14,776 bases of DNA from an uncultured delta proteobacterium (GTDB taxonomy: Bacteria; RBG-13-61-14; DRUE01): assembly GCA_903930515.1 (NCBI GenBank), contig CAIYYW010000205.1, forward strand, positions 1-14,776. Direction: 5' to 3'. Positions within the stretch are counted from its first letter, which is position 1. Every line of letters begins with the position of its first letter. The position numbers were made by a program, and so were the translations under genes. This document shows positions 3,180 to 12,546 of the stretch, piece by piece. The notes under the pieces were generated by a model that worked only from the letters and a program-made list of their open reading frames with translations, did no database searches and was not told the origin of the DNA.

Positions 3180-3391
3180 TTGTAAAATTTGATACCGTTT
3201 TGGGCGGGACTGGCGGACTTATGGCGTTTCCGGTAATCGTTCCCCGGCTCGGCCAAGCTCGCCCTCGCCTTTTCTCGTTTCTCGCATTATTGTTGGGGAG
3301 GAGGGAATCCCCCTTCGCGGAAGTTCAAAAGGACCAAGCGGCGCAAGGCGACATTGTATTCCGGCCCGCCATGCGCAGCCCTGGCAAAGCT
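3180..3391. other. Gene-free spacer between chemoreceptor promoter and tRNA-Leu
   Basis: No convincing gene or hairpin terminator is visible. The open frames crossing it are read-through of the tRNA. The string TCGTTTCTC (near 3276) recurs in the spacer near 9044, hinting at a degenerate intergenic repeat. Confidence 0.4.
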
Positions 3392-3479
3392 TGGTGCCGG
3401 AGGAGGGAATCGAACCCTCACAGAGCTATGCTCCACGGGATTTTGAGTCCCGCGCGTCTCCCAGTTCCACCACTCCGGC
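3392..3479 (-). tRNA. tRNA-Leu, anticodon CAA
   Basis: The minus strand folds as a class II tRNA of 88 nt with encoded CCA. The acceptor arms are GCCGGAG and CTCCGGC followed by A-CCA. The anticodon stem CGGGA/TCCCG encloses the loop CTCAAAA, so the anticodon is CAA, reading UUG leucine codons. A long variable arm (GTGGAGCATAGCTCT region) and the T arm GAGGGTTCGATTCCCTC complete it. The type II shape and the sequence match bacterial tRNA-Leu closely. Confidence 0.96.
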
Positions 3480-3505
3480 ATTGCGGGGTTCGTGTGGATT
3501 AAGGG

Positions 3506-10576: not shown

Positions 10577-11332
10577 TTGTCAGAACTGGGAAGGATGTGG
10601 AGCAATACCAGGCTGGTGGTGCTCAGCGCGGTGAGCGCGGCGCTGTATGTGGCTCTCTTGATCCCGTTCAAATTCATCCAGATCATCCCGGGCCTGGCCG
10701 AGCTTAGGCCCGCGGGGGCCATCCCGCCTCTCTGCAGCCTGTTGTTCGGGCCGGCCGGGGCCTTCGGGGCCGCGTTCGGAAACCTGATCGGAGACTTTTT
10801 CGGGACCCTGGGCCCGGGATCTTTCTTCGGGTTCCTGGGAAATTTCCTGTATGGCTATCTCCCTTATAAAATCTACCGCTCTTTTGCCGAGGAGAATTTC
10901 AGCTGGAAAATGCCGCTTAAGAATTGGCTGGTCCTGGAATTCTCCATCGCGGTCAGCGCCGCGGTCTGCGCGATCATCATCGGGTTCGGCCTGGATATTA
11001 TCGGCATCGTCCCGTTCCAGGCCCTTGCCAACTGGATCGTTTTCAATAACCTCCTCTTCGGCCTGATCCTCACCCCACTGATCCTGCTCCCAATTTTCCC
11101 CTTCCTCCGAGAATCCGGCCTTTTTTATAACGACCTGGTCCAGATCAAAAAACATCCCGCAAGGACCCTGGCCGGGATCATTTTGATCATCCTTGGAATC
11201 GCCATCGCGCTCGGCGCTGGAAACTGCCCTTCCCAGGCCGCAGAACTGATCGGCTTGACCGGAAAGCACCTGACCCTCTCCATCATCGGCCCAGGAGTGG
11301 CACTGATCCTGATCGGATCAATTATTGTGTAA
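10577..11332 (+). CDS. ECF transporter S-component-like integral membrane protein, substrate unknown
   Basis: A 251-residue, very hydrophobic protein with about six membrane segments. The first (RLVVLSAVSAALYVALLIPF) and the following ELRPAGAIPPLCSLLFGPAGAFGAAFGNLIGDFFGTLGP run, here broken only for description, resemble energy-coupling-factor substrate-binding (S) components related to QueT-type proteins. Such proteins capture a vitamin or metal and dock with an EcfT/EcfA module; no such module is in this window, so a shared energising unit encoded elsewhere would be needed. Two extra hydrophobic helices at the C-terminus (LAGIILIILGIAIALGAG and SIIGPGVALILIGSIIV) go beyond the usual fold. 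The start is TTG at 10577, six bases after GGGGGTTT gives the ribosome site; ATG 10595 is poorer. Because B12-related genes lie nearby, a corrinoid or cobalt role is conceivable but not shown. Confidence 0.72.
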   Translation: MSELGRMWSNTRLVVLSAVSAALYVALLIPFKFIQIIPGLAELRPAGAIPPLCSLLFGPAGAFGAAFGNLIGDFFGTLGPGSFFGFLGNFLYGYLPYKIYRSFAEENFSWKMPLKNWLVLEFSIAVSAAVCAIIIGFGLDIIGIVPFQALANWIVFNNLLFGLILTPLILLPIFPFLRESGLFYNDLVQIKKHPARTLAGIILIILGIAIALGAGNCPSQAAELIGLTGKHLTLSIIGPGVALILIGSIIV

Positions 11333-11459: not shown

Positions 11460-11469
11460 CAGCTATAGT

Positions 11470-11488
11470 GGGGGTCCCCCAAAAAAAA
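11470..11488 (+). repeat. G5-T-C5 palindrome followed by A8
   Basis: Five G, one T and five C at 11470-11480 are followed directly by eight A. On the minus strand this reads as eight T before the palindrome, the wrong order for a terminator, so a protein-binding or structural role is more likely. Confidence 0.3.
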
Positions 11489-11538
11489 TGCAAAATATAG
11501 TATTTTTTACTTGACAAGATAAAAAAAGCTGATATAAT
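11481..11538 (+). promoter_or_regulatory. Strong consensus promoter with UP-like element for the non-coding RNA
   Basis: TTGACA (11511-11516) and TATAAT (11533-11538) are both perfect, 16 bases apart. The 30 bases before the -35 are strongly A/T-rich (runs of A8, AAAATATAG, TATTTTTT), like the UP elements of highly expressed stable-RNA promoters. It is the best promoter in the window, and no protein-coding gene lies within 240 bases downstream. Confidence 0.85.
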
Positions 11539-11544
11539 CACGAT

Positions 11545-11700
11545 TAAATTAGGTTCTTTCTCAAAATGGTGGCCTCGCGCCGGGATACGGGATGACTCTT
11601 AGGCAAGTCTGATGCCCAAATATAAACCAACCACCACCTACCCTCGGGACCCTTGCTCTTGCCCCGGATCATCCTCCTGACCGAGGCCACCTTTTTCTTT
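11545..11700 (+). ncRNA. Structured non-coding RNA of unknown family, about 150 nt
   Basis: Transcription from the consensus promoter should start near 11545 and end in the T run at 11692-11696. The ends close in a perfect 10-bp stem, GGTGGCCTCG (11568-11577) with CGAGGCCACC (11682-11691). Further in, GGATGA (near 11590) pairs with TCATCC (near 11669), and GGCAAG (11602-11607) pairs with CTTGCC (near 11658), forming a long rod interrupted by internal loops. The apex holds a 31-base guanine-free stretch (11615-11645) including ACCAACCACCACCTACCC. There is no open reading frame worth noting. The size, the rod shape and the strong promoter resemble 6S RNA, but I do not see its conserved sequence, and the SRP RNA apical motif and tmRNA features are absent. 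It could be a regulatory RNA acting through the C/A-rich loop. Confidence 0.7.
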
Positions 11701-11787: not shown

Positions 11788-12546
11788 TTGAAGATTTGCC
11801 GGGTGGAGATCGGCGCGGGGAAAATAATTTATGGGATCATCCAGGGCGAAGAGGTCTTTGGGCTGGAAGGGGAGCTGACCCGGGCCAAGCCGGGGAATAA
11901 TTTGGGAAGGCTTTCGGAGTTGAAGCTGAAATGCCCTTCGGTTCCGAGCAAGGTGGTGGGGGTGGGACTGAACTATCAGGACCACGCCCGGGAGATGAAT
12001 CAGAAGCCCCCGGAAAATCCAATCCTGTTCTTGAAGCCGGCCACCGCGGTGATCGGGCCGAATGAGCCGATCCTGTATCCCGCTCAATCGCAGCGGGTTG
12101 ACTACGAGGCCGAGTTGGGGGTGGTGATCTCGCGGCTCGCGAGAAATGTGAAAGCCGCCTCCGCCAACGATTATATCCTGGGCTATACCTGCTGCAATGA
12201 TGTCAGCGCGCGAGACCTTCAGATCAAGGACGGGCAATGGACCCGGGCCAAAAGCTTTGACACCTTCTCTCCCATCGGCCCCTGGATTGAGACCGAGTTG
12301 GACCCCTCCAACCTCGTGGTGCAAGGGATCCTCAATGGGAAAATCGTTCAGAATTCCAACACCGCCAACCTGATCTTCACTGTGCCTGAGCTGGTCTGCT
12401 TCATCTCCTCCATAATGACCCTCCTGCCCGGGGATGTGATCGCAACCGGAACCCCATCCGGGATCGGCCCGATGCAAAAGGGGGACGAGATCGTGATCAG
12501 CGTTCAGGGAATCGGGGAGTTGAAAAATTTTGTCCGGGCCGGGTAA
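11788..12546 (+). CDS. Fumarylacetoacetate hydrolase family protein
   Basis: A 252-residue cytoplasmic metalloenzyme of the FAH superfamily, whose members hydrolyse, decarboxylate or hydrate small beta-diketo or 2-keto acids (acylpyruvases, oxaloacetate tautomerases and 2-keto-4-pentenoate hydratases look alike). Diagnostic motifs occur in order: GVGLNYQDHARE, PILFLKPATAVIGP, VDYEAELGVVI with E107 and E109, CCNDVSARDLQ with D138 (the three divalent-metal ligands), WTRAKSFDTFSPIGPWI, and GDVIATGTPSGIGPMQKGD. Length and motif spacing are those of the compact bacterial and FAHD1-like members. The start is TTG at 11788, with GGGGGTTT five bases upstream. It follows the non-coding RNA, with its own extended -10 promoter. 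The precise substrate cannot be read from sequence; neighbours give no pathway. Confidence 0.93.
   Translation: MKICRVEIGAGKIIYGIIQGEEVFGLEGELTRAKPGNNLGRLSELKLKCPSVPSKVVGVGLNYQDHAREMNQKPPENPILFLKPATAVIGPNEPILYPAQSQRVDYEAELGVVISRLARNVKAASANDYILGYTCCNDVSARDLQIKDGQWTRAKSFDTFSPIGPWIETELDPSNLVVQGILNGKIVQNSNTANLIFTVPELVCFISSIMTLLPGDVIATGTPSGIGPMQKGDEIVISVQGIGELKNFVRAG

Follow-up and report, generated by a model that had tools for sequence, protein, structure and literature searches.

The 455-base intergenic stretch between a QueT/ECF S-component gene and an FAA-hydrolase gene is very probably home to a real RNA gene. It lies in the window analysed here, a stretch of 14,776 nucleotides that constitutes contig C205 of genome G000. 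The transcript is about 155 nt long, with limits judged from sequence, and its family is apparently new, restricted to one sparsely sampled phylum and of a familiar kind. On balance, we lean towards a small RNA that pairs with mRNAs in trans through a C-rich seed loop, probably with the aid of Hfq.

Genome G000 is assigned to the GTDB phylum RBG-13-61-14, which corresponds to Candidatus Coxosiota and comprises three genomes of 3.65–4.74 Mb (PMC11382960). The closest relatives of G000 among the retrieved genomes are G001, from the same genus, and G002, from the same order; all others share no rank with it below the domain. G002 is Deltaproteobacteria bacterium RBG_13_61_14, a name that fits the phylum designation. 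The QueT proteins of G001 and G002 share 82% and 48% identity with the copy in the window. A tRNA-Leu gene (3392-3479, minus strand), located away from the RNA, is the sole Rfam match in the window at the gathering threshold. Open reading frames called over it on both strands (3287-3502) are probably spurious. The features relevant to the RNA are as follows:

10577..11332, plus strand: QueT/ECF S-component gene, upstream neighbour in conserved synteny (PF06177, E 4.5e-13)
11481..11510, plus strand: AT-rich UP-like block adjoining the −35 element, conserved in G002 (alignment with L022:1331-1392)
11511..11538, plus strand: sigma-70-type promoter TTGACA-16-TATAAT with TG before the −10 element, 12/12 consensus positions
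11545..11700, plus strand: small RNA gene, with limits suggested by the promoter and the T run
11568..11577, plus strand: 5′ arm of closing stem P1, pairing with 11682-11691 (perfect 10 bp)
11602..11607, plus strand: 5′ arm of apical stem P3, GGCAAG, pairing with 11658-11663
11632..11657, plus strand: conserved C-rich loop CACCACCTACCCTCGGGACCCTTGCT, near-identical in G002, the proposed pairing region
11658..11663, plus strand: 3′ arm of P3, CTTGCC, pairing with 11602-11607
11682..11691, plus strand: 3′ arm of P1, pairing with 11568-11577, from the fold and the comparison with G002
11692..11700, plus strand: T-rich tail, putative terminator and possible Hfq tail
11788-12546, same strand as the RNA: FAA-hydrolase gene, the downstream neighbour, about 90 nt past the RNA

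The perfect −35/−10 pair and the AT-rich UP-like region reported in the initial annotation were both recovered. A 12/12 promoter with a spacing of 16–18 occurs once in the real window and in none of 60 whole-window dinucleotide shuffles. The promoter of G002 reads TTGACA-16-TACATT and thus has a spacer of identical length. Local alignment of the promoter blocks of window and G002 yielded a score of 56, while shuffled sequences averaged 16.5 and did not exceed 31. Just upstream of the promoter, positions 11465-11504 contain GGGGG-T-CCCCC followed by A8. The A/T-tract block to the right of this motif is kept in G002, carries an imperfect inverted repeat (AATGC/GTATT) and might represent a UP element or, alternatively, an operator. 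A SAM-II-like match to the same positions (20 bits, gathering threshold 44, E 0.29) was rejected on account of its position upstream of the promoter and its score far below the threshold.

The RNA starting at around 11545 folds at −51.3 kcal/mol, compared to −37.2 ± 3.6 kcal/mol for shuffled sequences (z −3.9, none of 200 as good), and the segment 11564-11696 reaches a z value of −4.8 against shuffles. As initially described, a perfect 10-bp stem closes the molecule (11568-11577 with 11682-11691) and a T run (T5CT4) follows, with TTTTTCTTTTG directly 3′ of the stem. A simple terminator scan left the 3′ end unflagged because P1 encloses an interior of 104 nt instead of a short loop. Closing stem and T run appear to serve as the terminator. 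The predicted fold features one large apical loop. Its C-rich part is mostly unpaired in the predicted ensemble, with a 3-bp GGG pairing as the main exception. Three stems had been proposed, of which P1 and the apical P3 are backed by G002, while the middle stem is predicted in the window sequence alone. No gene-length open reading frame spans the RNA and none of the short frames is shared with the G002 homologue, in agreement with the earlier view that no coding frame fits. As far as the promoter alone can tell, the RNA may be abundant.

A homologous RNA is present in G002 on contig C7. It is located behind the QueT homologue and preceded by the UP-like block, the −35 element, the 16-nt spacer and a leader of similar length. 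The transcripts align locally with a score of 32 (shuffled mean 16.5, maximum 26 in 500), and conservation does not extend beyond promoter block and RNA; the tested flanks on either side score no better than shuffled sequences. The loop is near-identical in both genomes (ACCACC..ACCCTNNGGACCCTTGCT), with CACCA-CCTACCCTCGGGACCCTTGCT aligning with CACCACCCAACCCTATGGACCCTTGCT. In contrast, the middle of the RNA differs and is not alignable with MAFFT. The G002 copy folds only modestly better than shuffled sequences (z −2.1), and a separate hairpin with TCTTTCTTTTT follows about 55 nt past its P1. The contig of G001 stops 46 bases past the matched QueT region, which places the position of the RNA outside the assembled sequence.

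Compensatory changes, which the initial annotation had named as a check, were found in P1 and P3. Among nine aligned pairs of P1, one is changed on both sides (U-A to C-G) and two on one side (G-C to G-U). Three of the six pairs of P3 are changed on both sides (A-U to G-C twice, G-C to U-G), the pairing being taken from a structure-guided alignment. The sum of four two-sided and two one-sided changes, with no pair broken, stems from two RNA copies and is suggestive support for both stems, not proof.

The covariance-model search against Rfam, likewise proposed beforehand, returned no match over the RNA at the gathering threshold and only chance-level matches up to an E value of 10. Together with promoter and fold, this supports the description as a structured RNA that has its own promoter and belongs to none of the catalogued families. 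The accompanying suggestion that its class may be undescribed holds at the level of the family; as to function, the RNA is most simply read as a further lineage-specific small RNA rather than as a new class.

A scan of GTDB R220 genomes, which may leave out G000 itself, detected the exact loop pattern solely in G002, and no IMG/VR contig contains it. A sequence model of the RNA scored 67.6 bits in G000 and 55.7 bits in G002. The other 384 genomes yielded at most 20.7 bits, the best of these matches lying inside a protein-coding frame; the model is sequence-only and weaker than a structure-aware one, so that divergent relatives could be missed. Matches of 16–21 bits in other phyla look like chance and lack the promoter when inspected by eye. 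DNA matches in other phyla cover the promoter only. Loop-pattern matches with one mismatch were also obtained in other phyla, and the surroundings of the two that were inspected (L016 and L020) contain no comparable RNA. These searches revealed no relative of the RNA outside the three-genome phylum.

The RNA has its own promoter, a putative T-run end, no evident coding frame and, in the two sequences at hand, a conserved exposed seed region. An Hfq gene is present in G000, G001 and G002, a CsrA gene in G000 and G002. In the proposed mechanism, a free-standing small-RNA gene of Ca. Coxosiota would be transcribed constitutively, with transcription ending at the T run, and Hfq would bind to the U-rich tail of the product. 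The exposed loop ACCACC..ACCCUNNGGACCCUUGCU would then base-pair to G-rich sequences of mRNA leaders, among which that of the HU-type (hup) mRNA is a candidate.

This candidate derives from an 11-nt perfect complementarity between the loop core GGACCCUUGCU and the 5′ leader of the hup gene in G002. The complementary site (GGACCCTTGCT) sits between a promoter-like site and the ATG, while three other sites of this sequence in G002 are inside long open frames. The orthologous leaders contain GGCAAAGGGTTCTGAGG in G000 (56% protein identity) and GGCAAAAGGGTTCTGAGG in G001 (60%). Predicted duplexes of loop core and hup leader reach −28.6 kcal/mol in G000 and −25.6 kcal/mol in G002, and that of the G001 leader with the loop of the G000 RNA −25.7 kcal/mol. 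In a background of sampled leaders, 3 of 105 (G000) and 11 of 227 (G002) paired as well as hup or better (p only ~0.03–0.05); among those of similar G + C content, the counts were 0 of 26 and 1 of 49, respectively. For G002 this comparison is not an independent test, since the 11-nt match was what singled out hup, and the hup gene of G000 shares ancestry with that of G002. We regard the hup leader as a tentative lead, more doubtful than not as a target.

In all three genomes, the element GCAA(A)GGGTYCT..GGTTT is found within the 170 bases that precede the start codon of hup (L053, G000:C175; L052, G001:C616; L051, G002:C3). The G000 leader shows an apparent GGTTTTGAAT/ATTCAAAACC hairpin when read by eye. 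None of the three leaders matches Rfam, and the region with the shared element may itself act as a regulatory leader.

Alternatively, the RNA could act via a protein, either as a second 6S-like, polymerase-binding copy or as a protein sponge or scaffold, which we consider unlikely. The strong promoter and the closed, rod-like fold would suit such a role, some bacteria carry two 6S RNAs, and the CsrA genes of G000 and G002 would offer a partner for a sponge. However, the initial suggestion of a 6S-like RNA is not supported. The 6S model (RF00013) does not match the window RNA even at an E value of 10, and a search of whole genomes detected no copy in G000 and a single one in G002 (85.3 bits). 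The latter, a canonical 6S RNA located behind a gene read as zapA, exists besides the RNA homologous to that of the window. What is conserved is a single long apical loop, whereas the two-sided central bubble flanked by stems that is typical of 6S is absent from the predicted fold. A CsrB-type sponge is at odds with the conserved loop, which has one GGA and lacks repeated GGA loops. As a separate observation, a candidate RNA occupies the intergenic space that follows zapA in both G001 (L029, G001:C119) and G000 (L030, G000:C228); inspection by eye suggests a 5-formyl-THF cyclo-ligase for the gene on its other side. The sequence adjoining zapA folds as a long rod in G001. It is not called by the Rfam 6S model, but is probably a divergent 6S RNA.

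The position about 90 nt upstream of the FAA-hydrolase gene and on the same strand would also fit a cis-acting leader or attenuator of that gene. This is very unlikely, because G002 has no FAA-hydrolase gene at the place of the RNA: there, the upstream neighbour is kept and the FAA-hydrolase homologue is found on another contig. The T run that closes the RNA and the lack of any Rfam riboswitch point in the same direction. It is scarcely to be expected that promoter and hairpin reflect chance or a relic without a functional RNA. Promoter-like sites do occur in AT-rich intergenic stretches and only two copies are known; yet place, promoter and loop are kept where the neighbouring protein is only 48% identical, and the stems show compensatory changes. 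Two further-reaching readings are that the RNA defines a phylum-wide class controlling HU via the conserved leader element, or that, as a structured RNA, it binds protein in an entirely novel role, in either case present in all Coxosiota and nowhere else. We judge these to be improbable and retain the base-pairing small RNA as our working assignment.

A literature search on RNAs of such kind returned nothing specific to phylum RBG-13-61-14. As far as found, this would be the first non-coding RNA to be recognised as specific to Ca. Coxosiota, a phylum known from three genomes. It yields a seed alignment for a family absent from Rfam and, with the HU leader, a testable regulator-target pair in an uncultured lineage. 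A confirmed link to HU, or a confirmed new protein partner, would be needed to make it more than a further RNA of a familiar kind.

Compared to bacterial small SRP RNA (RF00169), the RNA is similar in being small, structured and presumably stable, but it does not match the model with its conserved apical domain, and the SRP RNAs of these genomes are encoded elsewhere (G000:C45, 66 bits; G002:C77, 76.7 bits). tmRNA, with its tRNA-like domain and tag frame, can be set aside as well, since ARAGORN detected only the tRNA-Leu in the window and Rfam gave no match; the earlier remark that the marks of SRP RNA and tmRNA are lacking is therefore correct. With 6S RNA (SsrS) it shares the free-standing gene, the strong promoter and the long terminal stem that closes the molecule; it differs in the missing bubble and model match, and in its location, as the place behind zapA is taken by the canonical 6S in G002 and by the other candidate in G000 and G001. 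The closest resemblance is to Hfq-dependent trans-acting small RNAs with C-rich seed loops, which likewise have their own sigma-70 promoter, a length of 100–200 nt, a structured fold, an exposed conserved loop, a U-rich end and an Hfq gene in the genome. Unlike these, the RNA of the window bears no sequence relation to Rfam families, its closing stem spans the whole molecule and its target is putative.
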